Position numbers and translations under genes: made by a program | Shown: positions 6,573 through 61,153 of the stretch, one piece after another | Numbering within the stretch: position 1 is the first letter of the stretch | Layout of the letters: each line of letters opens with the position of its first letter | The notes under the pieces: model-generated | The model's database searches: none | Seen by the model: only the letters and a program-made list of their open reading frames with translations | What the model was told of the DNA's origin: nothing | Virus record (IMG/VR): IMGVR_UViG_3300024259_002152 | Coordinates: 186,001-250,000 of that record | Reading direction: 5' to 3' (one strand) | Source of the DNA: a virus | Length of the DNA stretch: 64,000 bases

Positions 6573-6583
6573 AGAGCAAAAAA

Positions 6584-7180: not shown

Positions 7181-7206
7181 GCAAAAATAATTATATAGTT
7201 ATACAA

Positions 7207-7620
7207 ATGAAAAATAAAAAAATAGTATTTACTAACGGATGTTTCGATATTATTCATAGAGGTCATATTGACTATTTAGAAGAAGCAAAAAAATTGGGAG
7301 ATATTCTTCTAATAGGTTTGAATAGTGATGAATCAGTGAGAAAATTAAAAGGTGAAAATAGACCTATTAATAATGAAGAGGATAGAAAAAAAGTTTTACT
7401 GGCTTTGAAAAGTGTAGATGAGGTTATTATTTTTAATGAGGAAGACCCCTTAGAATTAGTAAAACAAATAAAACCAGATGTCATTGTCAAGGGGGGCGAT
7501 TGGAAAATAGAAAATATGATTGGTGCTGATTTTGTGATAGAAAATGGAGGAGAAGCATATTCTTTACCTTTCTATGATGGATATTCAACTACTAACATAT
7601 TGAATAAAATGAAAGATTAA
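7207..7620 (+). CDS. hldE/rfaE2-like: D-glycero-beta-D-manno-heptose 1-phosphate adenylyltransferase-like
   Basis: A 137-residue single-domain nucleotidyltransferase, the size of stand-alone RfaE2 enzymes. It has FTNGCFDIIHRGH (~8-20; the HxGH-type motif is present as HRGH), GLNSDESVRKLKGENRP (~37-54), DRKKVL (~59-64) and VKGGDW (~94-99). The family transfers AMP (or CMP) to a sugar-1-phosphate, typically giving ADP-heptose for LPS core. No kinase half (RfaE1) is fused or seen nearby. With kdsB in the same run it points to inner-core-type sugar activation. Confidence 0.9.
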   Translation: MKNKKIVFTNGCFDIIHRGHIDYLEEAKKLGDILLIGLNSDESVRKLKGENRPINNEEDRKKVLLALKSVDEVIIFNEEDPLELVKQIKPDVIVKGGDWKIENMIGADFVIENGGEAYSLPFYDGYSTTNILNKMKD

Positions 7621-7663
7621 ATATGAATATTTTTATTGTTGATTGTTATGGAGGTTATTTATA

Positions 7664-19928: not shown

Positions 19929-20891
19929 ATGTTTTTTAAAGATAAAAATATTTTAGTAACAGGGGCATCTGGATTTACGGGAACTAATCTTATTAAAAGA
20001 TTGCTAGAAGAAGGTTCTAATGTCAGGGGGGTATTGCATCATAAAGAACCTCAAACTGATTTTGATTCTAATAAAATTAGTTATATGTGGGGTGATTTAA
20101 CTAATAAAGAAGATTGCAAAAAAGTAGTAGATGGAATTGATTATGTTTTTATGTGCTCTGCAAATACATCTGGTGCGGCAGTTATGGAAAGTACCCCTTT
20201 GGCTCATGTTACTCCAAATGTGATTATGAACGCTTTAATGCTAGAAGCTGCTTATGAGGCAGGGGTAAAAAAGTTTATGTTTATGAGTAGTACGACCGTA
20301 TATCCTATTTCTGAATATCCTTTGAAAGAAGATGATATTAGTGACGAGTTTTATAGTAAATATTTTTTTGTTGGGTGGATGAAAAGATTTTCAGAAATTA
20401 TGTGTGAAATGTATGGCAGCAAAATCAAAAAACCAATGACAACAATAATAATTAGACCAGGGAATTTGTATGGAGATTATGATGATTATGAGTGGGATAC
20501 TTCTCATTCGACTGCTGCTTTAATTAGAAGGGTAGTAGAAAGACATGATCCATTGGTGGTTTGGGGAGATGGAAGTGATTTAAAAGATATTACTTATATC
20601 TCTGATTTGATTGATGGAATAATTACTTCTATGGAGAATATCGAAAAATTTACTATTATTAATATAGCTAGCGGTAAATCTTATAGTATTAAAGAAACAT
20701 TAAATACCATTCTGGAAGTAGATGGCTATACAGATGCTAATGTGGAATACGATTTAACTAAACCCACTATGATTCCTAAAAGATTGATAGATATAACTAA
20801 GGCGAAAGAGTTGATAGATTTTAAACCTAAATTTGATTTGAGGTCCGGTATAGAGAGGACCATAAAACATTATAGAGAAAATAATAAATAA
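19929..20891 (+). CDS. NAD-dependent epimerase/dehydratase (fucose-synthase-like SDR), copy 3
   Basis: A 320-residue extended SDR: TGASGFTGTNLIKRLLE (~11-27), FMCSANTSGAAVM (~75-87), MSSTTVYPISEYP (~119-131), YFFVGWMKRFSEIMCEMY (~148-165), IIRPGNLYGDYDDYEWDTS (~177-195) and WGDGSDLKDITYISDLIDGI (~213-232). It shares the GWxKR block with the genes at 16097 and 18389. The three copies probably act on successive or alternative NDP-keto sugars. AAAGGGA 7-13 nt upstream of ATG is the ribosome site. Confidence 0.82.
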   Translation: MFFKDKNILVTGASGFTGTNLIKRLLEEGSNVRGVLHHKEPQTDFDSNKISYMWGDLTNKEDCKKVVDGIDYVFMCSANTSGAAVMESTPLAHVTPNVIMNALMLEAAYEAGVKKFMFMSSTTVYPISEYPLKEDDISDEFYSKYFFVGWMKRFSEIMCEMYGSKIKKPMTTIIIRPGNLYGDYDDYEWDTSHSTAALIRRVVERHDPLVVWGDGSDLKDITYISDLIDGIITSMENIEKFTIINIASGKSYSIKETLNTILEVDGYTDANVEYDLTKPTMIPKRLIDITKAKELIDFKPKFDLRSGIERTIKHYRENNK

Positions 20892-46034: not shown

Positions 46035-48548
46035 GTGAATAAAGATTTTATCTTATCGGTTTTGAAGAAAGTGAGATTTTTGTTTCCTTTCGTGGTGGAC
46101 TCACCTCATGAGGTTCTTGGGGAGTTGGCGCAAATAATTCCATCTCGATATATGATATTTCCTTGTGATATTATAGATCTTAGACAGTTTATTAGAGAGG
46201 ATAAGATTTCATCTTCGAATCCTATACTGTTTTTTTCTCAAAAATTTGCAGATAAATATTTGAAAGAATATTCAGTGTTTTTAGTTCTTGACTCTCATGT
46301 AGATGTTGTGAATGATCTATACGGAGGTGTTCAAGTTAATTATTGCGATGAACTCCCTTTGTCTCATCTACTTGTTAGAATCCTTATTAACGAACCATCT
46401 GCAAATAACTCTTTCGATGTTGTTAAAAACTTAATGGAAGAATTTAATTTAGGGGTAGAATGTTTGGTATCAAATAGTGTTCCTGGTATTTCTGGTCCTA
46501 GCAAAAAATTGTCATATATAATAGAACCTAAAAAGGCACAAAGAACTATAGGTGTTCCTTCAGACCTCCCTCTTACTCCAAAAGAAAACGATATATTTGA
46601 GTTCTTGAGACAAGTTAAAAAAGATTACAATCTTGATATTCAAATGAGGGTGGCAGGAGGATGGGTCAGAGATAAGATTCTTGGTAAAGAAAGTGATGAT
46701 ATAGATATAGCTGTAGATATGCCAGGTTATGATTTTGCTAAATTGGTGGCCCAAGCTGCCTTTAAGAGCAATATATCTCATGACCCTAAAGCGTATAATG
46801 TTAGTTTAGACAAAGATGCAGACCCAGCCACGAGAGTTGATGATGACAATCTGATGGTAGGGGCTGTAGATTTATTTGGTCAGAAAATAGAATTTGTTCC
46901 AATGAGAACAGAGCACTATCCTGATCCTCAAAGCAGAAAACCTAAAATTACCACAACGAATGATCCAAGAGAAGATGTGAAAAGAAGAGATCTTACAATC
47001 AATTCTATTTATTATAATATAGATACTGGTCAAGTAGATGATTTTGTAGGAGGAGTAGAGGATTTAGGTTTGGAAAGCGGAAAAATGATATTAAGAACAC
47101 CAGATGATGCCAAAAAAACTTATGAAGAAGATCCATTAAGGTTGCTGAGAGCTTTGCGCTTTCATAGTCGTTATCCCAATAGCGAATTAGATCCAGATAT
47201 AATCAAATCAATGTCAGACCCAGACATACAAGAATCTTATGTCAAGAAAGTTGCTGCGTCAAGAGCTGGACCTGAGATAATGAAAATGTTAGTGGGGGAT
47301 AATCCTACTGCATCTTTAAAACTATTATTTGAGAGCGGTTTATATAGGAAAGTTTTTGATGTTCCTGCAATGGGGAATATTAATCCTGATGGTATAGAGA
47401 TGGATCAAAAATCTCCTTATCACAAATATAGTTTATTAGATCATACGATAGAAGTGGTGTCTAATCTTAATAGTATTATGAAAGAGAATGAAGAGCCCGA
47501 TGATATGAGAGGACTTATGAATCTTGCTGCTGTTTTTCATGATTTCGGAAAAATGGATAACAAAGTTGCAAGACCTCATAAACGTCCAAGAGTTCCTGGA
47601 CATACTACTTATGTTGGGCACGAAAGAAGCTCAGAAGATATGGCAGAAGCCATATTGAAATCTATTAACGTGCCAAAAGAAAAAAGAAATTTAGTTAATA
47701 CTGTTATTAAAACACATATGTATCCTCATGATGCTTCGGATTGGAGTAGTAAAAATAAAGGTCCAGGTAATTTTATTGAAAAATTAAAAATAAAAGGCAA
47801 AGGTGGAGTAGATGATTTGTGGAAGTATGTGTTTTATCATGGTCAAGCTGATGCCATGTCGTCTAATCCTGAGACATATGATGAGCAAAAATATAATCAA
47901 GGAAAAGAGTGGTTTGAGCAATATCGTTCTGAACCATCGACAGAATTTACCAGATTTCAAGGAACGTTAATAGATGGTAACGTAGTGGATAATCTCAGGC
48001 AGCAAATAGAGCAGCAGAGACAAGTTCGTATCAGAAAAAACATTATCAGTGATGCTTTACATTTTATTTTACAACAGCAATATACAGGTAATATTGATAT
48101 GTCTTTTGCTTCATTGCCAGAAGGAGCAGATAGAGAGAAAGCTATGAATAAGTCTATTAATGATGCTACTAATAAAGTCAAAGGGTGGATGCTTAATGTG
48201 CATAATAAATATTTAGAACCACCTAAGGGAGGACAGGTTATGGGGTCTAATTGGTTTAAAAAAGTAAAAACTGCACAAGTAGCTGCTCTATCAGGAGATG
48301 TGCAAACTCAAGATCCAGAGATAAAGAAAGGTCCAAAAGAAGCTCTTCCAAAATATCAAGTTGGTATGAAGGTAAGAGATAGAAGAAATTCTGTATCTCA
48401 ACAACAGACCTATGGGGTGGTAGAAGCAATAAAAGGTAATAAAATGAAGATAGTTTGGAATCCTGATAGTAAAGAAAAAAGACAAGAAGAAGTTGTCGAT
48501 ATGGTGGAAAATACTGAAATTTTATCTTTAATTGTTGCGGAGGTATAA
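46035..48548 (+). CDS. CCA-adding enzyme/poly(A) polymerase-like fusion with HD domain
   Basis: An 837-residue protein (GTG start). Residues ~1-175 are an unrecognised N-terminal domain. Residues ~185-400 form a class II nucleotidyltransferase head: MRVAGGWVRDKILGKESDDIDIAVD (segments ~204-227), RRDLTINSIYYN (~317-328) and YEEDPLRLLRALRF (~363-376), exactly the CCA-enzyme signature. An HD domain follows (AAVFHDFGKMDNK ~496-508, GHERSSEDMAEAI, THMYPHD). The C-terminal ~60 residues (KYQVGMKVRDRR...) look like a KOW/SH3-like strand domain. It is about twice the usual length and probably adds nucleotides to RNA ends. It may repair tRNAs attacked by host defence. Confidence 0.82.
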   Translation: MNKDFILSVLKKVRFLFPFVVDSPHEVLGELAQIIPSRYMIFPCDIIDLRQFIREDKISSSNPILFFSQKFADKYLKEYSVFLVLDSHVDVVNDLYGGVQVNYCDELPLSHLLVRILINEPSANNSFDVVKNLMEEFNLGVECLVSNSVPGISGPSKKLSYIIEPKKAQRTIGVPSDLPLTPKENDIFEFLRQVKKDYNLDIQMRVAGGWVRDKILGKESDDIDIAVDMPGYDFAKLVAQAAFKSNISHDPKAYNVSLDKDADPATRVDDDNLMVGAVDLFGQKIEFVPMRTEHYPDPQSRKPKITTTNDPREDVKRRDLTINSIYYNIDTGQVDDFVGGVEDLGLESGKMILRTPDDAKKTYEEDPLRLLRALRFHSRYPNSELDPDIIKSMSDPDIQESYVKKVAASRAGPEIMKMLVGDNPTASLKLLFESGLYRKVFDVPAMGNINPDGIEMDQKSPYHKYSLLDHTIEVVSNLNSIMKENEEPDDMRGLMNLAAVFHDFGKMDNKVARPHKRPRVPGHTTYVGHERSSEDMAEAILKSINVPKEKRNLVNTVIKTHMYPHDASDWSSKNKGPGNFIEKLKIKGKGGVDDLWKYVFYHGQADAMSSNPETYDEQKYNQGKEWFEQYRSEPSTEFTRFQGTLIDGNVVDNLRQQIEQQRQVRIRKNIISDALHFILQQQYTGNIDMSFASLPEGADREKAMNKSINDATNKVKGWMLNVHNKYLEPPKGGQVMGSNWFKKVKTAQVAALSGDVQTQDPEIKKGPKEALPKYQVGMKVRDRRNSVSQQQTYGVVEAIKGNKMKIVWNPDSKEKRQEEVVDMVENTEILSLIVAEV

Positions 48549-48549
48549 A

Positions 48550-49440
48550 ATGTTACAGGTTGGTTATGGAGGTTATTATTTGGTAGGGGGCAACGTAACA
48601 GAATATGTCGATTCTCCGACATATTATGAGCCTGGTTTTAATGTTATGTACCCAATAGAAATAGCCGCTCCTAAGTCAGATCGTTTTTTCATTCTTATCA
48701 GGAAAAGAGAAGATGAGTCGGGAGATGGTTTTGCCAATTTGGTTGCTACAAATGTTTCAGCGACAGCAGTTGACGCCACTAATGGAGAAAGTCTATTAGT
48801 AAGGACTTCTAATAACACTTTACATCCCGCTTGGAATCAAGATCCATCTTCTACTACTCCTGTTCTCCTACAGATAGATAATCAGTTGGACATGGTTAAT
48901 ACTATTTTAAGAGTAAGAGTAATTGATTGTAAAGTGAAAGATTCGACAGATAATAGTTTTATCAATTTTAGAGTGATTATAGAAGAAGATCCTGAAGATT
49001 TATATTTCAATTATATTCCTGTGCATAGGAGAATATATCCCGATAGAAATACTTTTAGTATTGCTGGTAGGTCAGCATATGTAACATTAAGAAATGATAG
49101 CGATGCTTATTTATTAGTGTCCCCCTATGCTTGGTTAAAGGAAGACACAAAGGATAAGTCAGATTTTTCTTATCCTCAAGATACATTTTATTATCAAATA
49201 GAGAATACTTACAATAGCGAAGACTTTACATTTGCATTATCAAGTTATAGTGATTCTTTTGTGGCTGAACATGTGTCTGTGTTAAATGTCCCAGGGAACA
49301 AAAAAGTAGCTCTTATTTTAATAGATAATGCTATTTATGATTATATATTTCAGTTGAGAAGTGGCGTAAGTTTAGTAATATCTGTTGTGGGAGAACTTAG
49401 TGGTATAGAAGATACGTTTACGGTCAACCTTAATGTATAG
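48550..49440 (+). CDS. probable virion structural protein, strand-rich
   Basis: ATG 48550 follows GGAGG; 296 residues. The protein is strand-rich with many Ser/Thr/Asp and few Cys, for example GFANLVATNVSATAVDA (~57-73) and VYISVVGELSG-like end. There is a candidate immunoglobulin-like or baseplate-type fold, but I recognise no family. Position directly before peptidases and stalk proteins suggests a virion component. Confidence 0.5.
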   Translation: MLQVGYGGYYLVGGNVTEYVDSPTYYEPGFNVMYPIEIAAPKSDRFFILIRKREDESGDGFANLVATNVSATAVDATNGESLLVRTSNNTLHPAWNQDPSSTTPVLLQIDNQLDMVNTILRVRVIDCKVKDSTDNSFINFRVIIEEDPEDLYFNYIPVHRRIYPDRNTFSIAGRSAYVTLRNDSDAYLLVSPYAWLKEDTKDKSDFSYPQDTFYYQIENTYNSEDFTFALSSYSDSFVAEHVSVLNVPGNKKVALILIDNAIYDYIFQLRSGVSLVISVVGELSGIEDTFTVNLNV

Positions 49441-49449
49441 GAGCGGGTA

Positions 49450-49962
49450 ATGGGATGGTTTAAAGAGTCACAAAATGAAAATTTTATAGAAAAAGTAAAG
49501 GATATTTTAAAAAAACATTCTTTCACTAACGCAATATCTAACTACTATCATATTCCCATTAGTGAAGTCGATACTCATCTAGAAATAGAGGTGTGTGATC
49601 TTCATGGGAAATTTGCAGAAGGAAATGGTAAATTAATAAGAATAGATAAAAAGTTGTTAGATAATGACTTCTTTGATGAAAATTTTCACTTTGTGATCCA
49701 CGAATTTTTCCATTGGTTGAAGAGAAGGTCAGAAAATAAATTTTACTTCAACGATCCAGAAGAAGTCCAAAGTTTTGTTTTGCAGATGGCTTGGAATTTG
49801 ATAAATGGGAAAAGCGAAGAAGAAGTAACTAGAAAGATTTATCCCATCATTAAGGCTCATTTTAAAGATCAAAATAAATTTGAAGATGTATTTACAGAAA
49901 TGTTAAATAAAGCAATTAATCTCTATCAGATTTATCAGAGAGGGGGAGAATTTTCGATTTAA
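49450..49962 (+). CDS. HExxH metallopeptidase-like protein
   Basis: A 170-residue protein with the zinc motif HEFFH (His84, Glu85, His88) in NFHFVIHEFFHWLKRR, the core of gluzincin/metzincin-like peptidases, followed by a helical domain. A further ligand might be a Glu in NDPEEVQSFVLQMAW (~100-114). Phage HExxH proteins can process virion proteins or cut host targets. It has a GGAG ribosome site and sits in the structural block. Confidence 0.72.
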   Translation: MGWFKESQNENFIEKVKDILKKHSFTNAISNYYHIPISEVDTHLEIEVCDLHGKFAEGNGKLIRIDKKLLDNDFFDENFHFVIHEFFHWLKRRSENKFYFNDPEEVQSFVLQMAWNLINGKSEEEVTRKIYPIIKAHFKDQNKFEDVFTEMLNKAINLYQIYQRGGEFSI

Positions 49963-49963
49963 A

Positions 49964-49971
49964 TATAAATA
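49964..49971 (+). promoter_or_regulatory. T4-late-promoter-like TATAAATA
   Basis: TATAAATA lies ~22 nt before the C39-like gene, just after the upstream stop. This octamer is the whole late promoter of T4, which uses a small sigma factor (gp55); this window encodes such a sigma. In AT-rich DNA it may be chance. Confidence 0.3.
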
Positions 49972-49992
49972 GATATTTTTTACGGAGATATT

Positions 49993-50709
49993 ATGAAAAG
50001 AATAAAAGTAACGCATTTTTTGCAAGATCCTGCACTTTGTGCAGTAGCCGCAGTCGCTGTTGTAGCAAATTTTTATAATCCAGAGATAACTTATGAGCAT
50101 GTGAAGAAAGTGGCTCATAGAAAAATTAGTAAAAAAATATCCGATGATGGACTATATTCTTCTCAAATATGTATGCTCCTTAATCTTCTAGGATTTCAGA
50201 ATGTATCTTTAGTTACTAGTGATTTTTCATGTATAGATTATTCCTGGTGTGATTATGGAAAAAGAAAGATGAAAGAAGTCCTAGAACAATCAATTTATAC
50301 TAAAAAAGAGAAAGAAGAGAGAGCTTTAACCAAAAATCTTTATAAATGGTATACGTTACAAGGTTATAACAATAGTATTAAAATTGATTATAATTTTGGC
50401 AGGTATATTAGAAAGCAATTAAATAAAAGAAAGCCTCTCATTTTGTCTTTTAATTGGACTATGTTTTTTAAGTTTGCTAAAGAGGGAGAAGTCGGACCAG
50501 ATCCAATAAATGGGGAGTCTGAGGAGCATGCTGTAGTTGCGAATGGTTATGATAAAAATGGAGTATGGGTAGTGGACTCTCATCATAATTACTACACCTA
50601 TAATAGGAAAAAGTATAGAAGAGGTTTTTACAAGATATCTTGGGAAAATTTATTCACTATTATGGGTGAGGGAGATGTGATTATTCCTAATGATTATTAT
50701 ATTGAATAA
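49993..50709 (+). CDS. C39/papain-like cysteine peptidase-like protein
   Basis: A 238-residue protein. The N-terminus has FLQDPALCAVAAVAVVANFY (~9-28), where C39-like peptidases have Q-x-x-x-x-C; Cys16 would be the nucleophile. The C-terminal half has GESEEHAVVANGYDKNGVWVVDS (~174-196), with His179 and Asp ~195 forming the expected catalytic pair. It may cleave a double-glycine or structural precursor, or cell-wall-linked peptides. It lies just ahead of the poly-serine genes and could process them. Confidence 0.62.
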   Translation: MKRIKVTHFLQDPALCAVAAVAVVANFYNPEITYEHVKKVAHRKISKKISDDGLYSSQICMLLNLLGFQNVSLVTSDFSCIDYSWCDYGKRKMKEVLEQSIYTKKEKEERALTKNLYKWYTLQGYNNSIKIDYNFGRYIRKQLNKRKPLILSFNWTMFFKFAKEGEVGPDPINGESEEHAVVANGYDKNGVWVVDSHHNYYTYNRKKYRRGFYKISWENLFTIMGEGDVIIPNDYYIE

Positions 50710-50721
50710 GAGAAAATATTT

Positions 50722-52296
50722 ATGGCTTTTGACAGATATGTAGAGGGGTTTGATCAGTGCGAGCCTCCTGTATGTCCTGAAGATATAGTTATAACTATTA
50801 TCAGTGTTAGTTGCACAGAAGACAAGATGCTGCATGTAGAATGGTTGGTTACCGATAAATATAATAGAGATATTAATGGTAACTATTTAGCATGGTCTTG
50901 TGATAATCAGGATTTAGATACTACTGTTTTTCCTTCCATAGGTCCTACTTCTTATGTCTCTTATTTTGATATCTCTAGCTGTATGGGGATTATTTATTTT
51001 AAAATAAAGGTAAGAATTGGAACTACTTTTTTTGAGGGGGATTTAGAAGCGTTCGATACAGCACTATGTACGTCAAGCGATACAGCAGTTCCAGCATCAT
51101 GGTGCGGGGATTGTCCTGATGGAGTTTCTACACCTCCTCCATATCTACTGTATGTGATATCATCTACTGTTCCTTCATATCCTACATATTTTGACTATGC
51201 AGGGTTATGCTGGTATGTAGATGATAATGAGAATGAAATTTCTATAAGGGATTTGCCAGAAGGAGCTATTTTAACTGGAGCAAGTGAAATATATTCATCT
51301 TGTGAAGACTGTTGCTTACAATTAGATTGTCCTAGTCCTTGGGTAGAATTGCCAGCAGATATTCAAGCATTTGCGGGAGAAAAGGTGGGAGTCTTTTATT
51401 TTGAATATCAGACTTATGATGTTGCAGATCAGTTATTCGTTATTAGGAACTTTTTTGAGCCAGATGATTGTCTCACTGATGATGATGGAAATCTTTTACC
51501 TCCCCCTGATAATAAGATACTATTTGATACGGGTTGTGTGAGTACTAATTTACAGGATTGTCCATCTTTTTTCGTAGATGATCCCCTCTGTATGGATTTT
51601 GCTGCTGCTACTTATGGTTTTTGTGTTAGGGTTAGGGAGGGAGAGTTACCAATAGGTATTCTTAATGTTTGTAATTGTAATGATACCGAAGGCACTTATT
51701 GGAGAATATGTAGTATAGATCCTGATCGCAACATTTCTAATTGGGAAGGTGGAGATGAATGTTTATGCACGGATATGAGTTCTTCAAGCAGTTCTAGCTT
51801 AAGTAGTTCAAGTAGTTCAAGTTCAAGTTCAAGTTCAAGTAGTTCTAGTTCTAGTAGTTCTAGTTCTAGTTCTAGTAGCTCTAGTTCTAGTAGTTCTAGT
51901 TCTAGTTCTAGTTCTAGTTCTAGTTCTAGTAGTTCTAGTAGTTCTAGTAGTTCTAGTTCTAGCAGTTCTAGTTCTAGTAGTTCTAGTAGTTCTAGTAGTT
52001 CAAGTAGTTCAAGTAGTTCTAGTAGTTCTAGTAGTTCAAGTTCAAGTAGTTCTAGCAGTTCGAGTTTAAGTAGTTCGAGTAGCTCTCAAAACTTATGGTA
52101 TCATGCGGCTACAGGATGGACGGGGTCAGGATGCACAGGTATACCTGCTGGTTTGGTGCTCATCTGTCTTCCATCAGGTGTTGCGAATGGAAGATGTTAT
52201 AATGGAAGCTTCTCGGGTCTTCCGAGCGGATGCACAACCCTCGGACCAACAACTCCGTGCTCTGCAATAGATGGGACATATACTGGACCTTGTTAG
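50722..52296 (+). CDS. Cys-rich protein with poly-serine stalk (paralogue A)
   Basis: A 524-residue protein, probably virion-exposed. Residues ~1-350 form a Cys-rich, strand-rich domain (~35 Cys) shared with the genes at 54010 and 55947; it begins MAFDRYVEGFDQCEPPVCPED. Residues ~352-455 are an almost pure serine run (one or two Leu). A ~68-residue C-terminal cap (WYHAATGWTGSGCTGIP...) is unrelated to that of paralogue B. Poly-Ser stalks are seen in surface and tail-fibre-like proteins and can carry O-glycans. No signal peptide is visible. The first 56 nt match paralogue B exactly. Confidence 0.75.
   Translation: MAFDRYVEGFDQCEPPVCPEDIVITIISVSCTEDKMLHVEWLVTDKYNRDINGNYLAWSCDNQDLDTTVFPSIGPTSYVSYFDISSCMGIIYFKIKVRIGTTFFEGDLEAFDTALCTSSDTAVPASWCGDCPDGVSTPPPYLLYVISSTVPSYPTYFDYAGLCWYVDDNENEISIRDLPEGAILTGASEIYSSCEDCCLQLDCPSPWVELPADIQAFAGEKVGVFYFEYQTYDVADQLFVIRNFFEPDDCLTDDDGNLLPPPDNKILFDTGCVSTNLQDCPSFFVDDPLCMDFAAATYGFCVRVREGELPIGILNVCNCNDTEGTYWRICSIDPDRNISNWEGGDECLCTDMSSSSSSSLSSSSSSSSSSSSSSSSSSSSSSSSSSSSSSSSSSSSSSSSSSSSSSSSSSSSSSSSSSSSSSSSSSSSSSSSSSSSSSSSSSSSSSSSLSSSSSSQNLWYHAATGWTGSGCTGIPAGLVLICLPSGVANGRCYNGSFSGLPSGCTTLGPTTPCSAIDGTYTGPC
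51779..52087 (+). repeat. serine-codon repeat array (stalk of paralogue A)
   Basis: The DNA alternates AGT with TCN codons (mostly TCT and TCA), an almost perfect 6-nt repeat of AGTTCT/AGTTCA type over ~310 nt. Using both serine codon families in strict alternation keeps the repeat unstable enough to vary in length while coding only serine. Leu (TTA/TTG) interrupts it near both ends. Confidence 0.93.
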
Positions 52297-52327
52297 GTGT
52301 AAAAATATTAAATAAGAGAAAAATAAT

Positions 52328-54010
52328 ATGTTAGATTGTCAAGTAATAACAGAAAACGATGATATCTTTATTTGTAAAAAGATGGGAGAAAGAACCCATT
52401 TTAAAGATTTTAAAATACACAAATCTCAATGTGAGCAGTGCGTGAAAGATGAAGAAATAGTGCTAAGACAGTTTGAAAATAATTTTTATTTTAGCTGTTT
52501 GATAAGTGTCGATCAAATAGATAAATTAGAGAATAAAGAAGAGATTATAGAAAATACTTTAGAATATTTTAGGCATTCTGAAAATGATCCAGATTTAGTA
52601 AATAAATTAAAATCTATGTTATTCTATTTTGTTATGAATCCTAGATTTAAATTTGATCCTATGGACAAATTGAGGTTGGAATATATTTTAAATAATATTG
52701 AAAATTTGAATTTATCGGAATCAATGGAAAGTTTTATTAACGATGATGAAAATTTATATAATTTTTATAAAAAGAACTTATTGGATTTAATGAGTAGTAA
52801 TATAGATGTTTTTAAAAATAGTATTAAACAACAATTAGAAATGGTGGTCGTTACAAAAGATTTTGCTATTCGATTTTTTGGGGAAAATAAAGACAAATTT
52901 GATGATGCTTTTTGTGCCGATTTTCATAAGTCTTTAAAAGAGTATGATAATAATATGGGGAGGATGAAGAAAGATCCTAATTTCGTTCCTGTTTTTAAAG
53001 TATCTTTAATAGATAAAATAAAGGGGGCAAAAGAAGCATTTAAAAGAATAGTAAAGAAATCTAAAGAAGAAGGAAAAGATGCTTTATGGATCAGCGAGAA
53101 AAAAATAATAGAAAGGCAAGTTTGTTGTACTACCTGCACGGATGGAGGAAGTTGTCCTTATTGTGGTTGCCAGATAAAGAAATCATGGTTTTTACCGCTA
53201 GGAAAATCAGAATTGTCAACTGAGGGCTGTCCCAATCTCAATACTTATCCCCATCTTAAAATCTTTCCCTCAAAAAATTATTGGGAAGTGTGTGAAGAAA
53301 AAACTTCTGTGATTATAGTCGCAAGAAATGAAGAAAATTTGAATAAAACTCTTGGAAGTCTTATTGCTAATGCAACAGGAGAAATAGAAATATTAGTTGG
53401 ATTAGATGGGTGCAGATATGATGTTATAAATAATGAAAAAGTTGCTACTTTACAATTTAATCAACATATAGGTAGGAGAAAAATATCTAATCAATTAGTT
53501 AAGTTGGCTACTGGGAAATACTTATTTGAAGTTGATGCTCATTGTGCTGTTTCTTATGGGTGGGATACTAGGTTAAAATGTGTGTGTGATGATAATATTA
53601 TTGTCGGATGTTCTGTTAATTCTATCGATGAAAAATTATGGGGATGTGATGAGGATATTAAATGGGTGGGAGGGAAAATAATAGAAGATGCAAAATGGAA
53701 ATGGGATAAAATTGATAATAATGTTGAGAAGATAGAAGAGGTAGAGAGTTTTAATGCTTGCGGATGGATGATAAGAAAAGATTATTTTGAAAAATTAGAT
53801 GGTCATGATGAAGATCTTGGAGAATGGGGATGGGAGAATGTTGAGTGGACATTAAAGAATAAATCTAATAGTGGTAGAATTATTATAAGAACAGATGTTA
53901 TAGTATCACATCTGTTTCGGAAACAGTATCCCTATGAAATAAAAGGATTAAAGTATAATGATGTAATACAAATATTAAAAAATAAAGACATTTACAAACA
54001 GGGTGTCTAA
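52328..54010 (+). CDS. glycosyltransferase (GT2-like) with N-terminal Zn/helical region
   Basis: A 560-residue protein. Residues ~1-260 are helical with a CxxC pair near 37-40. A cysteine cluster (CCTTCTDGGSCPYCGC, ~265-280) looks like a zinc module. The C-terminal ~240 residues are a GT-A glycosyltransferase: SVIIVARNEENLNKTLGSLI (~327-346), EILVGLDGCR (~355-364), GRRKISNQLVKLATGKYLFEVDAHC (segments ~382-406, with the DxH of the metal site) and GEWGWENVEWTLK (~498-510, the ED/EN acceptor motif). It lies between two poly-serine genes and overlaps the next by 1 nt, so it is the best candidate to glycosylate the stalks. Confidence 0.78.
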   Translation: MLDCQVITENDDIFICKKMGERTHFKDFKIHKSQCEQCVKDEEIVLRQFENNFYFSCLISVDQIDKLENKEEIIENTLEYFRHSENDPDLVNKLKSMLFYFVMNPRFKFDPMDKLRLEYILNNIENLNLSESMESFINDDENLYNFYKKNLLDLMSSNIDVFKNSIKQQLEMVVVTKDFAIRFFGENKDKFDDAFCADFHKSLKEYDNNMGRMKKDPNFVPVFKVSLIDKIKGAKEAFKRIVKKSKEEGKDALWISEKKIIERQVCCTTCTDGGSCPYCGCQIKKSWFLPLGKSELSTEGCPNLNTYPHLKIFPSKNYWEVCEEKTSVIIVARNEENLNKTLGSLIANATGEIEILVGLDGCRYDVINNEKVATLQFNQHIGRRKISNQLVKLATGKYLFEVDAHCAVSYGWDTRLKCVCDDNIIVGCSVNSIDEKLWGCDEDIKWVGGKIIEDAKWKWDKIDNNVEKIEEVESFNACGWMIRKDYFEKLDGHDEDLGEWGWENVEWTLKNKSNSGRIIIRTDVIVSHLFRKQYPYEIKGLKYNDVIQILKNKDIYKQGV

Positions 54011-55839
54011 TGGCTTTTGACAGATATGTAGAGGGGTTTGATCAGTGCGAGCCTCCTGTATGTCCAACGGATATAACGATTGAGATTATTAATGTTGTGT
54101 GTGTATCTAATACTTTATATGTTACATGGAGTATTGTAGATAATACCAGCCAGAATTTACTAGATAATCTTAATTCCAATGATCTGCTATGGTCTTGTGA
54201 TAATCAAGATTTTGATAATATTGTTTCTCCTGGATACTCTTCTACCAATATTTATACTGTTTCTTTTGATGTTTCCACTTGTGATGGAGTCATTTATTTA
54301 AAAGTAAAAGCAAAAATAGTTACTACTTTTTTTGAAAGTGGTATAGAAACATTTGATACATCGGGATGTATTGATGTTAGTAATCTAGCAGTTCCTGCAA
54401 TTTGGTGTGGAGATTGTCCTGATATAGTTTCTACTCCTCCTCCATATTTATTATATGTGAGATCTTCTACTGTCCCTTCGTACCCTACATATTTTGATTA
54501 CGGAGGTTTATGCTGGTATGTAAATAGCAGTAATAATGAGATTATGATAGAAGATTTACCAGTAGGGGCCATTTTGACTGGAGCAAGTGAAATATATTCA
54601 TCTTGTGAAGACTGTTGCTTACAATTAGATTGTCCTAGTCCTTGGGTAGAATTACCATCAGACATTCAAGCATTTAATGGAGAAAAGGTAGGAGTCTTTT
54701 ATTTTGAATATAAAACTTATCTCGTTGCTGATAGAATATATGTAGTTAGAAATTTTGATCCAGATGATTGTGATGCAGAAGGACCTTGGACTCCTCCGTC
54801 TGAAAAAATATTATTTGATACAGGTTGTGTAAGTACTAGTGCAGGTCCTTGTCCATCTTTTTTTGTAAGTGATCATTTGTGTTTAAGTTATGGTTCTTCT
54901 ACTTATGGTTTTTGCGTTCGGGTTAGGGAGAGCGAGTTACCTATAGGTCTTGTTAATGATTGTAACTGTAATGATGAGACTACAGATACTAATTGGGAAA
55001 TATGTAGTGTAGATCCTGATGGTGTTATCTCTAATTGGGAAGGTGGGAACGATTGTTTGTGTGAAGATGCCATGTCTTCCAGTAGTTCAAGTTCAAGTAT
55101 AAGCTCAAGCAGTTCAAGCAGTTCAAGTAGTTCAAGCAGTTCAAGTAGTTCAAGTTTGAGTAGCTCGAGTAGTTCTAGCTCGAGTAGTTCTAGTTCAAGC
55201 AGTTCTAGTTCAAGTAGTTCTAGTTCAAGCAGTTCTAGTTCAAGTAGCTCTAGTTCAAGTAGCTCTAGTTCTAGTAGCTCTAGTTCAAGTAGTTCTAGTT
55301 CAAGTAGTTCGAGTTCGAGTAGTTCGAGTTCGAGTAGTTCGAGTTCGAGTAGTTCGAGTTCGAGTAGTTTTAGTAGTTCGAGTTCAAGTAGTTCGAGTTC
55401 AAGTAGTTCGAGTTCAAGTAGTTCGAGTAGCTTAAGTTCGAGTAGTTCGAGTTCAAGTAGTTCGAGTAGCTCAAGTTCGAGTAGCTCAAGTCACGCTGCT
55501 GAGGGTTGTCCCGCTACGTGTGGAGATTGTAGCGAAACTTATAATGTAGAAATAACAGGTTTTACTACTAGTCCTGAGCATAATATTTCTACCACCGTTA
55601 CACGAATTAGTGGATGTCAATGGATAACTGCTGGGATGGGTTTCGGAATGGCAGGAGCAGCTATTGAATGTGCTGGAGGAGTATGGGTAGTGCGTGAATA
55701 TTATTTATTCCCATATGTAATGGCTATAATTCCATCTGGTACAGAACCTCTCGCTTATACTAATGATTGCCCTACTACTAATTCTCCATATAACTTACTA
55801 AGTGCCATAGGAGATACTGGGATAGCAACGGTATCTTAA
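54010..55839 (+). CDS. Cys-rich protein with poly-serine stalk (paralogue B)
   Basis: A 609-residue paralogue of the protein at 50722. The Cys-rich head (~1-355) keeps the same cysteine spacing and WCGDCPD, CLQLDCPSPWVEL and GFCVRVRE blocks. Residues ~356-494 are a longer poly-serine run with rare Ile/Leu/Phe. The C-terminal ~115 residues (HAAEGCPATCGDCSETYNVEITG...) differ from paralogue A and contain a glycine-rich centre (GMGFGMAGAAIECAGG). The first base of its ATG overlaps the glycosyltransferase stop. It is probably a virion surface protein. Confidence 0.75.
   Translation: MAFDRYVEGFDQCEPPVCPTDITIEIINVVCVSNTLYVTWSIVDNTSQNLLDNLNSNDLLWSCDNQDFDNIVSPGYSSTNIYTVSFDVSTCDGVIYLKVKAKIVTTFFESGIETFDTSGCIDVSNLAVPAIWCGDCPDIVSTPPPYLLYVRSSTVPSYPTYFDYGGLCWYVNSSNNEIMIEDLPVGAILTGASEIYSSCEDCCLQLDCPSPWVELPSDIQAFNGEKVGVFYFEYKTYLVADRIYVVRNFDPDDCDAEGPWTPPSEKILFDTGCVSTSAGPCPSFFVSDHLCLSYGSSTYGFCVRVRESELPIGLVNDCNCNDETTDTNWEICSVDPDGVISNWEGGNDCLCEDAMSSSSSSSSISSSSSSSSSSSSSSSSSSLSSSSSSSSSSSSSSSSSSSSSSSSSSSSSSSSSSSSSSSSSSSSSSSSSSSSSSSSSSSSSSSSSSSSSSFSSSSSSSSSSSSSSSSSSSSLSSSSSSSSSSSSSSSSSSSHAAEGCPATCGDCSETYNVEITGFTTSPEHNISTTVTRISGCQWITAGMGFGMAGAAIECAGGVWVVREYYLFPYVMAIIPSGTEPLAYTNDCPTTNSPYNLLSAIGDTGIATVS
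55076..55489 (+). repeat. serine-codon repeat array (stalk of paralogue B)
   Basis: About 138 serine codons. Parts have a 15-nt unit (AGT AGT TCT AGT TCA and close variants), others an AGT AGT TCG AGT TCG unit, so the array grew by several separate expansions. Compared with the stalk of paralogue A, the TCN codon choice shifts from TCT to TCA to TCG along the array. Confidence 0.93.
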
Positions 55840-55880
55840 AAGATAAAAAGGAAAAATTGTACAAAATGAGGAACAAAAAT

Positions 55881-55938
55881 ATGTTAGACTGTTAAATAAA
55901 AACAGAAAATGGTAATATTTGAGAAATAAAAAAGGAAC
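55881..55938 (+). pseudogene. decayed 5' fragment of the glycosyltransferase gene
   Basis: ATGTTAGA(C)TGT(T)AA... aligns with the first 39 nt of the glycosyltransferase gene at 52328 with 31 identities and no gap. The fifth codon has changed from CAA to TAA, so the reading frame stops at once, and homology fades after ~40-60 nt. It sits in the gap before the third Cys-rich paralogue, exactly where an intact copy would be expected. Confidence 0.75.
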
Positions 55939-55946
55939 AAAATATT

Positions 55947-56996
55947 ATGACTTTTAATAGATATACAGAAGGATTTGATCAATGCGGACCGCCATCATGT
56001 CCTGAGGATGTGATAGTAGAAATTACAAATAAGACATGCACTAATGATAACACATTGCATATAGAATGGACTGTCGTAGACAGGTATAACAGAAATCTAG
56101 ATCTAAATTCTGTTTTATGGTCTTGTGATAATCAGAATTTTAATAATACTTCTTACCCAGAAAATGATTTTCAGCCATATGAAACTTCTTTTGATGTTTC
56201 TAGTTGTGAAGGTATTATTTATTTAAAAGCAAAGGTAAGAATTGGTACAACTCTTATAGAAAGTAAGGTAGAAACATGCGATACGGCTTTGTGTGATACA
56301 ATTAGTAATCTAGCAGTTCCTGCAATTTGGTGTGGAGATTGTCCTGATACTGTTTCTAATCCTCCTTTATACTTATTGTATGTGAGATCTATGACTGTCC
56401 CTTCATATCCTGCATATTTTGATTACGGAGGGTTTTGCTGGCATTTAACTAATGATAATAACGAGGTATCTACGGATGATTTACCAGAAGGGGCTATTTT
56501 AACTGATATAGATACCTCTTATCTATATTGCAATGATTGTTGTTTAAAATTAGATTGTCCCAGTTCGTGGGTGGAGTTGTCGGCTGATGCCCAAGAAACC
56601 CCAGGAGAAAGGGTGGGAGTTTTTTACTTTGAATATCAAACGACTATTTGTCCTGATAGATTTTATGTTATTAAGAATTTTGTGGATAGTGATTGCACTG
56701 CTGCGGGGGCATGGACTCCAGAGTCAGATAAAATATTATTTGATACGGGTTGTATCGCAACTAGTTTAGAAGAGGGTCCATCATTTTTTGCTGGTAATCA
56801 TTTATGTTTAGATTATGGAGAGCCCACATATGGTTTTTGTTTAACTGTTAGAGAGGGAGATTTACCTATAGGTATTGTTAATGATTGCGATTGTTCAGAT
56901 AATTGCAATACTACTTGGAAAATATGTAGTGTAGATCCTGATGGTAGCATTCTTAATTGGGAAGGTAGTAATGAATGTCTATGTGAGGAAATTTAG
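55947..56996 (+). CDS. Cys-rich paralogue C, without poly-serine stalk
   Basis: A 349-residue protein that is the head domain only: it aligns end to end with residues ~1-350 of the paralogues at 50722 and 54010 (MTFNRYTEGFDQCGPPSCPED at the start; WKICSVDPDGSILNWEG and CLCEEI at the end) and stops exactly where their serine runs begin. The cysteine pattern is kept, so it is still likely folded. Loss of the stalk goes together with decay of the preceding glycosyltransferase copy. It may be a stalk-less subunit or a relic under weaker selection. Confidence 0.75.
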   Translation: MTFNRYTEGFDQCGPPSCPEDVIVEITNKTCTNDNTLHIEWTVVDRYNRNLDLNSVLWSCDNQNFNNTSYPENDFQPYETSFDVSSCEGIIYLKAKVRIGTTLIESKVETCDTALCDTISNLAVPAIWCGDCPDTVSNPPLYLLYVRSMTVPSYPAYFDYGGFCWHLTNDNNEVSTDDLPEGAILTDIDTSYLYCNDCCLKLDCPSSWVELSADAQETPGERVGVFYFEYQTTICPDRFYVIKNFVDSDCTAAGAWTPESDKILFDTGCIATSLEEGPSFFAGNHLCLDYGEPTYGFCLTVREGDLPIGIVNDCDCSDNCNTTWKICSVDPDGSILNWEGSNECLCEEI

Positions 56997-57019
56997 GTTT
57001 TCACTAGTTAAAAAATATT

Positions 57020-57385
57020 ATGGAGTATCAAACAATGACGTTTAAAAATATATGTAAAAATTATTTTGATAGGAATAAAAAATATCTGCTATCAGATCAC
57101 ATTATTTACGAGATGAATGGGGCTGTGTTATGTAAGACAAGCAATGCTATTTTTGATTTTCATGAAATAGCAATAAAAAATATTATAGATTATTGCAAAG
57201 AGGCAGGATATGAAAAAATAGATAAAGTAGTTTTTGTTTCTTCTTATGATGTAGATATTGTTGAAGATGCTCCCAAATTACAACTAAAAATGCAAGCTGA
57301 TTCTAAAATAAGTATAATAAAAGAAAATGACAGATTTATAGCAATGGTTTGTATTGGAGAATGGGTGGAGATTAATGAAAAATAA
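57020..57385 (+). CDS. hypothetical protein
   Basis: A 121-residue protein (MEYQTMTFKNICKNYFDRNKKY...), ATG 57020 or ATG 57035. It has alternating helices and strands (IDKVVFVSSYDVDIVEDAPKL; RFIAMVCIGEWVEI). No family is recognised. Its last codons overlap the histidine kinase gene by 11 nt. Confidence 0.5.
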   Translation: MEYQTMTFKNICKNYFDRNKKYLLSDHIIYEMNGAVLCKTSNAIFDFHEIAIKNIIDYCKEAGYEKIDKVVFVSSYDVDIVEDAPKLQLKMQADSKISIIKENDRFIAMVCIGEWVEINEK

Positions 57386-59459
57386 TATAAAACAGAGTAT
57401 ATTCTTAGTGGGTTTTTTAATCATTTTTATTTCTTTTGTGCTGTCATGGAGGGTATTGACTTATAAAAAACTAGAAAATACTATTGTATTGAATACTCAA
57501 GAGAGGCTAGTGACTGTCGTTGAATCGGAATCAGTAATTATCAGTCAATTGATAAATAATTATTTTGTAGAGGACGATTGGTTGGCATTTATGAATGATT
57601 TCAATGGGAGAACGGGAAAAATAGGAAAAGATGGATATATGTGGATAATAGATGATAAGGGAATAGTAAAATATCATCCATATCAACAATACATCGGTAA
57701 AAGTGCAATTATTTTAAGAAGGAATATATTGGATGATGGAGGTTGTAAGAATTTTGAAGATATTATTGGTAGAATGAAAAGAGGAGAAAAAGGATATGGA
57801 GATTATACATCTATTTGGAGCAATAAAGATCAAAAAAAAGTGAAAAAAATAGTAGCATTTTGCCCTCTTGAAGTAAATAAAAACAAATGGTCGATTGCTG
57901 TTTCTATTGGTTATGTGGAGATCTCGTCTCCTATAGTCATAAATAAATATATGGATATTTTCGGCGTAATTGTTATATTTATTTTTACTTGTATTGTGGG
58001 TTATATTTTTTATAAGAAACAAAAGAAAATAGATGAAACAAGTATATTTGTTCAAACAGAACACGAGTTAAGGGAAAGTAAAGATTTTATAAGAAGAGTT
58101 ATTGATACTATTCCTCTTTTAGTTTTTGTAAAAGATTATGAGGGACATTACATATTAGCTAATCAAACATTGGCAGACATGCTAGGCGTAACAGTAGAAA
58201 AAATAGAGGGGAAAAAAGACATCGATTTCATGGGTAGCACTGAGGTTGAGGAAGCAAATCGGTATACAGATGCAGATAAAAAAGTCATTACAACTCAGGA
58301 AGAGATGCATATTTATGAAGAAAAATCTACGGACTCTAAGGGCAATATCGTATATTTTAACACAATAAAATATCCTTTAACTATTGGGGAGAAATCTGAT
58401 TACGTTCTAGGAGTATCTACTAATATCACAGAAAGAAAAATGGCAGAAGAGAAAATAGAGTCTTTGGCAAAATTTCCAGGAGAAAATAGCAATCCAGTGT
58501 TGAGAATAGATCATGATGGCAAACTTATTTATGCTAATAATGCTAGTGAAGCTTTATTAGAACTATGGGGTAGTAACGTGGGAGGATATGTGCCATCATC
58601 TTTTACTCATATAATAAAAGAGTGTTTGTTAGAGCATATAGTAAAAACTAAAGATATAAAAATTAATGGTAATATTTTGACATTGAGTTTCACTCCTATC
58701 CGTGATGATTATATTAATATTTATGGATCAGATATCACAGACATAAAAGCAGCAGAAGAAGAATTGAGAAAAGCAAACGAGGGGTTAGAGGAATTTGCTT
58801 ATATTACTTCTCATGATTTACAAGAACCATTAAGAACTGTTTTTGCATATTCTCAGTTATTGAAAAATTCTTGTTACGATAGATTGAGTGAAGAAGAACA
58901 AAAATTTCTTAACTATTTAATGAGCGGCAGCCAACGGATGAAGATACTTGTAAAAGAGTTGCTTGATTACTCAAGAGTTGGGAAAAGTCGAGATGCATCA
59001 GGAATTGAAAGAGTGAATATAGGGATGTTATTGGATGAGATCTTTGAAGACTCTCAAGTATATATTAAAGAAACAAATGCTATTATTACTGTTCAAAAAC
59101 ATATGCCTACAATTATTGGTTCTCGTTTGAGAATAAAACAGTTATTTCATAATCTAATTAGTAATGCATTGAAATTTAGAGGACAACAACAACCTATCAT
59201 AAAAATAGGTTATCGCGAGTTAGATGATGCAAATTATTGGGAGTTTTATGTTGAAGATAATGGGATAGGAATTGATCCTCAATTTCATGATCGTATTTTT
59301 GGTATTTTTAAAAGGTTGTATTCTAGAGAAGAATATCCTGGAACAGGTATAGGATTAGCTTTGTGTAAAAAGATTGTAGAAACTCATGCAGGTGATATAT
59401 GGGTAGAGTCTGAAGCGAATAAAGGGACTATAATCTATTTTACAATTGCTAAATCATAA
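57375..59459 (+). CDS. membrane-bound PAS sensor histidine kinase
   Basis: ATG 57375 (GGTGGAG upstream) gives 694 residues. TM1 is FLVGFLIIFISFVLSW (~11-26); an extracytoplasmic Cache-like domain follows (DGYMWIIDDKGIVKYHP, ~88-104) up to TM2 (IFGVIVIFIFTCIVGYIFY, ~194-212). Two PAS regions lie at ~235-355 and ~360-455. The HisKA box FAYITSHDLQEPLRTVFAY places the phospho-accepting His at ~480, and the HATPase shows HNLISNALKFRG, DNGIGID and GTGIGLAL. It can sense an external or redox signal and phosphorylate receivers such as those at 62534 and 62928. A full sensor kinase is very unusual in a phage. Confidence 0.93.
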   Translation: MKNNIKQSIFLVGFLIIFISFVLSWRVLTYKKLENTIVLNTQERLVTVVESESVIISQLINNYFVEDDWLAFMNDFNGRTGKIGKDGYMWIIDDKGIVKYHPYQQYIGKSAIILRRNILDDGGCKNFEDIIGRMKRGEKGYGDYTSIWSNKDQKKVKKIVAFCPLEVNKNKWSIAVSIGYVEISSPIVINKYMDIFGVIVIFIFTCIVGYIFYKKQKKIDETSIFVQTEHELRESKDFIRRVIDTIPLLVFVKDYEGHYILANQTLADMLGVTVEKIEGKKDIDFMGSTEVEEANRYTDADKKVITTQEEMHIYEEKSTDSKGNIVYFNTIKYPLTIGEKSDYVLGVSTNITERKMAEEKIESLAKFPGENSNPVLRIDHDGKLIYANNASEALLELWGSNVGGYVPSSFTHIIKECLLEHIVKTKDIKINGNILTLSFTPIRDDYINIYGSDITDIKAAEEELRKANEGLEEFAYITSHDLQEPLRTVFAYSQLLKNSCYDRLSEEEQKFLNYLMSGSQRMKILVKELLDYSRVGKSRDASGIERVNIGMLLDEIFEDSQVYIKETNAIITVQKHMPTIIGSRLRIKQLFHNLISNALKFRGQQQPIIKIGYRELDDANYWEFYVEDNGIGIDPQFHDRIFGIFKRLYSREEYPGTGIGLALCKKIVETHAGDIWVESEANKGTIIYFTIAKS

Positions 59460-59584: not shown

Positions 59585-59628
59585 TAGTTTAGTTTAGTCT
59601 AGTTTAGTTTAGTAAGGAGTTACAAATG
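59585..59628 (+). repeat. TTTAG-repeat leader with ribosome site (copy 1)
   Basis: Six TTTAG-type pentamers (one TCTAG) run up to AAGGAGTTACAAATG, the ribosome site and start of the von Willebrand gene. The same ~40 nt leader, including TAAGGAGTTACAAATG, is repeated before the next gene at 60245. Confidence 0.8.
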
Positions 59629-60243
59629 AAAAAAAACAAGGCGGAATTAGTGTTTATTGTGGACCGTTCCGGCTCCATGATGTCAATTGCTTCTGATATG
59701 CAGGGAGCAATCAAGTCAGTTCTATCAGACCAAAAGAAAAACCTCAAAGGTGATATAAATGTGACCTTTGTACGTTTTGACTCTGAATACGAGGAAGTAT
59801 TCAGTGGTCGATCTATCAATGATGTTTCTGAAACGGATTTAGAAATTAATCCAAGAGGAATGACATCTTTGTTGGATGCAATGGGAAAAACTCTTAATAC
59901 TTTTGAAAGAAGATTTTCTGAAACAGATGAGAAGAATAGGCCTAAGAGGGTTTTATTCCTTATTATTACTGATGGACAAGAAAATAATAGCAAAGAGTAT
60001 TCGAGAGATAAAGTTTTTGGCATGATTAAAACTTTGGAAAGAGATCACGAATGGGGATTTACTTTTATTGGTGCTAACCAAGATGCTATTTCTGAAGGTA
60101 GTAGTATTGGTGTAGCAAGAGGAAAATCTCTTAATTATGCAGCTTCGACGAAGGGAGTTAGGTGTATGGCACGATCTGTTAGTAATTTTACAGCAGATTA
60201 TCTTGAGAGTGGTGATGCAAGTTACTCTGACGGTGATGAGTAA
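59626..60243 (+). CDS. von Willebrand factor type A domain protein
   Basis: A 205-residue protein that is one vWA domain. The MIDAS metal site is FIVDRSGSMMS (~10-20, DxSxS), a Thr in PRGMTSLLDAMG (~82-93) and LIITDGQENNSKEY (~112-125). vWA proteins act as metal-dependent adaptors, often with MoxR-type ATPases or in conflict systems; no ATPase lies nearby. It shares a leader sequence with the next gene and probably works with the two following proteins. Confidence 0.88.
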   Translation: MKKNKAELVFIVDRSGSMMSIASDMQGAIKSVLSDQKKNLKGDINVTFVRFDSEYEEVFSGRSINDVSETDLEINPRGMTSLLDAMGKTLNTFERRFSETDEKNRPKRVLFLIITDGQENNSKEYSRDKVFGMIKTLERDHEWGFTFIGANQDAISEGSSIGVARGKSLNYAASTKGVRCMARSVSNFTADYLESGDASYSDGDE

Positions 60244-60244
60244 T

Positions 60245-60286
60245 TTTTAGTTTAGTTTAGTTTAGTTTAGTAAGGAGTTACAAATG
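60245..60286 (+). repeat. TTTAG-repeat leader with ribosome site (copy 2)
   Basis: TTTAG pentamers followed by TAAGGAGTTACAAATG, nearly identical to the leader at 59585. A duplicated leader before neighbouring genes of different sequence suggests shared translational control, or equal expression of two interacting proteins. Confidence 0.8.
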
Positions 60287-61153
60287 AGTTATGATCAGAA
60301 AATCCAGTCCGCTCGTAAAGTCATTGACGAGCATAATGCAAATGCTGACAATCAAATCAATTTTGAGGAATTTACCAAAAAGCTTATTAATTTGGGAGGT
60401 TCTTCAGAAGAATCTCTAAAAGCAGTGAGTTGGGAAGATTTACAAGATTGTGGACTTCCTAAAATTATTGCTAGGAGATTAACATTTCTCTTCAGGCAAG
60501 ATTCCGACAATGAGGGAGGTAAATCTACTTATGTCTCTGAAAAGAAAGTTGGAACACTTTCTTATAGGGAGTTAGTAGAACGCTACAATCCAAAAGATGT
60601 TAAAAATCCTGTGGGCAAAAGATTAAAAGATCTTTCGGATAACAAGAAGTTTATTGTTTTCGATGATAATAGTAAAGTTATTATTGATGAAACAATAAGG
60701 TTGCTGGAAGATATTGTTAATGGGTTGCCTGAAGTAGAAACGGCTTTTGTGAATAAAAGACCTCTTCAAACCTATAGCGTTGGAGAGCGTCCTGATTTTT
60801 ATGCAGAAGAAAATCCGATTTATCCTGGGAGAGCATTACGTTCTAATGAAACGTGCGATCAAACAGGGCGTTCTTGGCAAGGGGTTTCTATAGAAATCCG
60901 TCAATTACTATATTTGGCTATTGACACAGATGAATTTGTCATTTCGTCTGTATCGGATGCTCACGATATCTTAGATAAAGTTTTATCAAAAGAGTGCTCT
61001 TTTGATAGGTTGAGAGGAAGATATCCTGAAGCATCTAAGGCTTTTGATGAGGCTAGTAAAATCGGGACACTTCCTCTTCTGAAAATCAAAATAGGGGATC
61101 ACGGAAGTGCAGAAAAAGGTAATAATCCTTTTGGTAGGAACACTATCTATTAA
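60284..61153 (+). CDS. vWA-partner protein, uncharacterised
   Basis: A 289-residue protein that follows the vWA gene and shares its leader. The first ~75 residues (WEDLQDCGLPKIIARRLTFLF, ~45-65) have a SAM-domain-like or helix-bundle flavour with an EF-hand-like DNQINFEEF early on (no firm match). The C-terminal part has RSNETCDQTGRSWQGVSIEIR. It ends before a terminator hairpin. I suggest a vWA-associated adaptor, function unknown. Confidence 0.55.
   Translation: MSYDQKIQSARKVIDEHNANADNQINFEEFTKKLINLGGSSEESLKAVSWEDLQDCGLPKIIARRLTFLFRQDSDNEGGKSTYVSEKKVGTLSYRELVERYNPKDVKNPVGKRLKDLSDNKKFIVFDDNSKVIIDETIRLLEDIVNGLPEVETAFVNKRPLQTYSVGERPDFYAEENPIYPGRALRSNETCDQTGRSWQGVSIEIRQLLYLAIDTDEFVISSVSDAHDILDKVLSKECSFDRLRGRYPEASKAFDEASKIGTLPLLKIKIGDHGSAEKGNNPFGRNTIY

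Follow-up and report, generated by a model that had tools for sequence, protein, structure and literature searches.

When a virus encodes long runs of serine directly beside a glycosyltransferase (GT), are these runs accidents of repetitive DNA, plain linkers, or acceptors that the virus covers with sugar? This question is raised by a module at positions 50722–56996 of the window, which is the whole 64,000-nucleotide stretch analysed here and corresponds to bases 186001–250000 of a 350,866-bp virus record (G000). G000 is a giant bacterial virus, and phage replication genes for a clamp loader, a sliding clamp and a Holliday resolvase are present in it. The module holds a real, conserved GT27-like enzyme that is apparently dedicated to polyserine stalk proteins. 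In the reading favoured here, with a probability of roughly 0.6, the locus is a recombining array of head–polyserine–tip genes with a dedicated protein O-glycosyltransferase that would glycosylate the stalk serines.

Organization of the locus

All parts of the module lie on the plus strand, in the order head–polyserine–tip, GT, head–polyserine–tip, remnant of a GT start, and head only (Table 1). The original prediction that two Cys-rich stalked proteins flank a GT agrees with the open reading frames found there, whose stalks comprise 103 and 139 residues, and the ATG of the second head gene (54010) overlaps the stop codon of the GT gene. The decayed GT start that had been noticed ahead of the stalkless third paralogue also holds up, as it aligns to 52310–52365 with a score above the best of 300 shuffles. 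Membership of the C39-like peptidase in the module is uncertain, and no Pfam match was obtained for the HExxH protein.

Table 1. Features of the module and its surroundings in the window, and glycosyltransferases found beside polyserine genes in other phages
Location	Feature	Position	Strand	Support or remark
Window	Small protein, HExxH zincin-like motif (uncertain)	49450..49962	+	Motif; syntenic in G001
Window	C39-like cysteine peptidase, directly upstream of module	49993..50709	+	PF13529, 6e-11; syntenic in G001
Window	Cys-rich head (residues 1-352), 103-residue polyserine stalk, 69-aa Cys-rich tip; 524 aa	50722..52296	+
Window	Polyserine stalk 1	51778..52086	+	101/103 Ser; AGY and TCN codons mixed
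Window	GT, 560 aa; N-terminal Cys/helical region, Zn-ribbon, GT27-like GT-A catalytic domain	52328..54010	+
Window	Second head, 139-residue polyserine stalk, unrelated 115-aa tip; 609 aa	54010..55839	+
Window	Polyserine stalk 2	55075..55491	+	135/139 Ser
Window	Decayed remnant of GT gene start	55864..55918	+	Alignment score 55 against shuffle maximum 44
Window	Third head paralogue, stalk and tip absent; 349 aa	55947..56996	+
G000/G001	GT27-like
L027	Two GT9
L035	GT8-like			By motif; two GT2 matches a few kb further on
L048/L095	455-aa Cys-module protein with GT-like domain
L070	Homologue of the 455-aa protein of L048/L095			57% identical
L079	Cys-module and GT9			E = 0.008
L083	Zn-ribbon protein, GT-like protein, then MUCI70-type and GT2
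L093	GT9-like			By motif
L096	Sulfotransferase, then GT25
L101	GT7C-type 858-aa protein			Gene overlaps polyserine gene

Heads, stalks and tips

The two stalked heads are 69% identical to each other and 57–61% identical to the stalkless paralogue, and the 350,866-bp record contains no further copies. Between head copies 1 and 2, nucleotide identity reaches 93% in the first 60 bases and 87–95% around 540–660, with about 60–70% elsewhere over much of the gene. This patchiness suggests gene conversion among the head genes. In contrast to the heads, no clear similarity was seen when the tips of stalks 1 and 2 were compared. The AF2 model of the head has a pLDDT of 55; residues 20–116 look like an Ig/FN3-like beta sandwich, for which Foldseek returned single-domain matches only.

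The codons of the stalks bear on the first possibility named above. Across three stalks (two in G000 and one in the relative G001, described below), which comprise 298 codons, 68 third-position variants keep serine and 6 codons change the residue. Under a neutral 1:2 expectation this bias corresponds to p = 6e-26, a value that overstates the significance because slippage copies variants, so that they are not independent. The ratio of 68 to 6 nevertheless indicates that serine identity has been kept, and not the DNA repeat alone. Judged by its codons, the polyserine is no accident of a DNA repeat.

A GT27-like glycosyltransferase

The GT-A domain that had been predicted for the enzyme could be narrowed to the GT27 type by matches to solved structures. 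Pfam recognizes Glycos_transf_2 at residues 327–489 (E = 8.4e-6), within a catalytic domain that spans about residues 318–540 and is preceded by a Zn-ribbon (CCTTC...CPYCGC...CP, about residues 266–301) and, further N-terminal, by a helical region. When the GT was compared with the PDB by phmmer, polypeptide GalNAc-transferases led the matches (T. gondii, 1.5e-9; GALNT4, 2.6e-8; GALNT2, 3e-6). A two-sequence GT profile matched solved structures at 2.7e-13 over the whole GT-A domain; its best 15 matches were all GalNAc-transferases, and the next match followed at 0.013. Another GT2 of the same virus, used as a control, gave 23 matches, including chondroitin and heparosan synthases but not a single GalNAc-transferase (0/23), so the likeness is no general property of the GTs of this phage.

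The motifs DxH, WGxEN and HxFR, which are metal- and substrate-site motifs of GALNTs, are retained as D403-A-H405 (DAHC), W500-G-x-E503-N504 (WGxENxE), and H528-x-F-R531 with Y534-P-Y536 (HxFRxxxPY), and they are also conserved in the GT of G001. By its sequence the enzyme is GT27-like, with polypeptide GalNAc-transferases as its closest solved relatives, and this type of catalytic domain predicts a Ser/Thr acceptor. Its likeness to GALNTs (CAZy GT27) covers the full length of the catalytic domain. It differs from them in other parts, since GALNTs carry a lectin domain and a Golgi membrane anchor, whereas the phage-encoded enzyme, whose activity is predicted, has neither and instead possesses the Zn-ribbon and the helical N-terminus. 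The C-terminal ricin-type lectin domain is typical of the GALNT family and catalytically not essential; here, the GT domain is followed by about 20 residues, and Glycos_transf_2 is the only Pfam family in the protein. An AF2 model of the GT on a two-row alignment reached a pLDDT of 39.5 and was confident only for helices in the N-terminal part. An exact scan for the GT27 motifs in 2.9 M viral contigs, with a strict pattern that misses variants, returned G001 only. Four motif matches in prokaryote genomes lacked the right reading and were set aside as chance.

Conservation of the module in a relative

Searches with the head and the GT gave only weak chance matches among 50,697 phage records, nothing among genome contigs, and one relative among viral contigs, namely G001 (297,710 bp), in which the module is conserved. 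In synteny with the window, G001 encodes a head-only protein, the GT, and a head with a 56-residue stalk (56/56 Ser) and a third, unrelated tip. The two GTs are 57% identical, and 71% identical over the catalytic part. The shared gene order comprises the genes for a CCA-adding-like protein, a beta-rich 302-aa protein, the HExxH protein, the C39 peptidase, head, GT, head–polyserine, a small protein, a histidine kinase and a VWA protein.

The decayed gene starts are mirror images of each other. In the window, a decayed GT start precedes a head gene, whereas in G001 a decayed head start of 28 codons (L004 11098-11184) precedes the GT gene. These reciprocal remnants fit a putative ancestral head–GT array that would have gained and lost units.

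Polyserine genes and glycosyltransferases in other phages

A DNA pattern for mixed serine codons identified 99 viral stretches. Many of them either form the C-termini of tail fibres, with GYGY at the end, or are not read as serine, and these were taken as controls. A GT or GT-like gene lies within two genes at 10 of about 21 independent true polyserine loci, with G000 and G001 counted as one, and five of the ten pass a strict criterion of Pfam E <= 0.01. The genomes concerned, besides G000 and G001, are G002 (GT9), G005, G006/G015/G010, G011 (GT9), G012, G013, G016 (sulfotransferase and GT25) and G017 (GT7C). Among the neighbours of the controls (46 proteins, 32 loci), no GT family occurs among the 25 families listed, the best 25 of 41. 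In Fisher's test, the strict comparison of 5/21 with 0/32 gives p = 0.007, some control loci being mutually related, and the broad count of 10/21 gives p = 2e-5, with a motif reading that was not applied blind to the controls. PDB relatives were found neither for the fused GT of G017 nor for the GT-like protein of G006, and these two GT calls are Pfam or motif readings.

The pairing of a serine-rich, surface-type protein with a dedicated GT, as originally proposed, is therefore conserved in G001, and unrelated phages show it again with GTs of other families. The expected co-occurrence stands only in part: head and GT remain together in G001, but for about half of the other phage polyserine genes no neighbouring GT can be seen, for instance those of L089 (between tail genes), L055, L107 and L110, which have none within two genes. 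This counts against stalk glycosylation and means that unmodified stalks are possible. The polyserine could accordingly be a flexible linker, as in secreted bacterial enzymes, with the GT acting on host surface glycans or on another virion protein; as G000 has eight GT2-family matches overall, a GT next to a stalk could be incidental. This explanation is considered unlikely in view of the gene order, which puts a stalk gene on either side of the enzyme in G000 and one immediately after it in G001, and of the conservation of the enzyme, its predicted Ser/Thr acceptor, and the recurrent GT adjacency of which the controls show none.

Cysteine-rich modules are shared among several of these loci. 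In G012, the polyserine gene has as its neighbour a 135-aa protein whose Zn-ribbon matches that of the GT in the window (BLASTP 2.9e-9 in a small database; 1.3e-5 by profile). Small proteins beside polyserine genes in L032 (5311-5841) and L034 (10200-10694) have a Cys module in common with the 455-aa GT-like family, the better matches ranging from 4e-6 to 3e-9, and they lack the catalytic part. Polyserine genes therefore tend to have a Cys/Zn module in their company, whatever the GT family, and this module may serve as a docking adapter.

In L089, the polyserine gene lies between the DUF2460 and gp84/BR0599 tail genes, and in L148 it adjoins a J-like tail protein (2e-135). In G000, neither Terminase_6N nor Phage_sheath_1 was matched, and no tail or terminase gene was found with the families tried, so a virion location of its stalk proteins is proposed by analogy. 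The module probably belongs to a more general pattern in phages, in which polyserine tail proteins are paired with GTs, with a chemistry that we infer strongly. Generalized further, to a recurrent stalk-glycosylation cassette of tailed phages, the idea has somewhat less than an even chance. Such a cassette would combine a polyserine (mucin-like) tail protein with a GT whose catalytic domain is swapped among families (GT27-like, GT9, GT25, GT7C-type and others), and a Zn-ribbon/Cys adapter would be shared by several of them. The enzyme of the window would be its GT27-type GalNAc-transferase and would bring mucin-type O-glycosylation into a bacterial cell. Among the papers searched, none dealt with phage polyserine and a GT or with a phage GT27.

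Proposed mechanism

Since the closest solved relatives of the enzyme are animal and protist enzymes that start mucin sugars on serine, it is probable that the virus covers the serine stalks it encodes with sugar. In the mechanism proposed here, tandem head–polyserine–tip genes would recombine and be served by their own O-glycosyltransferase. During infection, in the host cytoplasm, the GT27-like enzyme (metal-dependent, with the DxH motif) would place a sugar on the stalk serines, by analogy alpha-GalNAc from UDP-GalNAc, and the Zn-ribbon ahead of its catalytic domain may dock it to the Cys-rich client. Glycosylation would give stiffness, hydration and protection to a rod of 100–140 residues, which would keep the variable Cys-rich tip distant from the head, the anchor of the rod, probably on the virion tail. 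Duplication, slippage and conversion would vary copy number, tips and stalks. Substrate, linkage, donor sugar, docking and virion location are those that we infer.

GALNTs usually use mixed Ser/Thr/Pro substrates, and pure polyserine would be an unusual one. Mucin-type O-glycosylation is known from animals and some protists. If the mechanism is correct, this locus would encode a phage version of it, in which the enzyme is compact and the acceptor a simple homopolymer. Such a system would be of use for engineering glycoproteins in bacteria and would shed light on how GT27 evolved. There would then also be a reason for phages to keep long polyserine runs, which would accept a brush of glycans that protects or stiffens tail proteins.

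Source of the sugar

G000 contains a 25-kb sugar cassette, which had been suggested to supply the donor. This suggestion is not supported. The dehydratase of the cassette is of the GDP-heptose type, and its two SDR enzymes (18389 and 19929) are similar to GDP-fucose synthase or UDP-glucose 4-epimerase (for 19929-20891, UDP-glucose 4-epimerase is the best match at 3.5e-27, with GDP-fucose synthases close behind). Furthermore, G001 keeps the module without most of the families tested, having no Epimerase_2 and one GDP_Man_Dehyd match, though both records may be incomplete. UDP-GalNAc, if used, could be supplied by the host.

Stalk modification with another donor, such as UDP-GlcNAc, UDP-Gal or a heptose or 6-deoxy sugar of the cassette, followed by extension by cassette GTs, is rather improbable. 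Genes for a GDP-heptose dehydratase-like enzyme, a cytidylyltransferase and a UDP-GlcNAc 2-epimerase, as well as several GT2s, are available in G000, and motifs alone cannot give the donor specificity of a GT. The gene content of G001 points the other way, as does the GT27 sugar-site motif WGxEN retained in the enzyme. Least probable of all is that the GT targets Ser/Thr outside the stalk, in the Cys-rich head or tip, so that the stalk would serve purely as a spacer: both phages have a stalkless head paralogue and the Zn-ribbon could bind a Cys-rich head, but serine identity in the stalks is under strong selection and the stalks are the obvious dense acceptor.

Comparison with known systems

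The likeness to serine-rich-repeat adhesins of streptococci and lactobacilli, on which the original prediction drew, extends to the logic of a long Ser-rich stalk between binding domains with a linked, dedicated enzyme, and not to kinship. Those systems use GT-B enzymes and an accessory Sec pathway. In the phage, the linked enzyme is GT-A/GT27-like and not a GT-B GtfA/GtfB pair of the kind that initiates O-GlcNAc on the repeats, the stalk has no repeats containing other residues, and neither SecA2/SecY2 nor another secretion system was found among the annotated neighbours (46035–59459). The resemblance is best described as an analogy and not as membership, with no homology on the evidence presented here.

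In the virion glycosylation of mycobacteriophages (cited in PMC12619734, ref. 45), phage-encoded GTs are likewise thought to modify virion proteins, there at the C-termini of capsid and tail-tube proteins. The module described here differs in its dedicated polyserine stalk and GT27-like enzyme, with a virion location assigned by analogy.

Another repetitive stalk was encountered in L096, where a collagen-like (GPAGADGAT)n fibre (6195-8494) is directly followed by a GT25 gene. The GT25 family includes procollagen galactosyltransferases. This pair resembles the polyserine module in placing a repetitive stalk beside a GT family with protein acceptors in animals, and differs in the repeat and the GT family; its function is putative. 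One phage genome also encodes a protein with a prepilin-like, methylation-type N-terminus (L143 16129-16686) and a TnpB-like protein (L144 9928-10689).

Neighbouring genes

Upstream of the module, a CCA-adding/polyA-polymerase-like protein with an HD domain and long terminal extensions is encoded at 46035-48548 and conserved in G001. The T4-type late promoter TATAAATA is not more frequent than expected by chance; the C39 gene has one copy 22 bp upstream. Downstream, the module is adjoined by a phage-encoded sCache-PAS-HisKA-HATPase histidine kinase (57354-59459), and G001 has a shorter kinase and two response-regulator-like open reading frames (L004 14780-15913, 18893-19776). Further on, a 42-nt leader, (TTTAG)n-TAAGGAGTTACAAATGA, occurs at 59588-59629 and 60246-60287 in copies that are 98% identical, each directly 5' of one of two consecutive genes, which encode a VWA protein (59626) and a 289-aa protein (60284).
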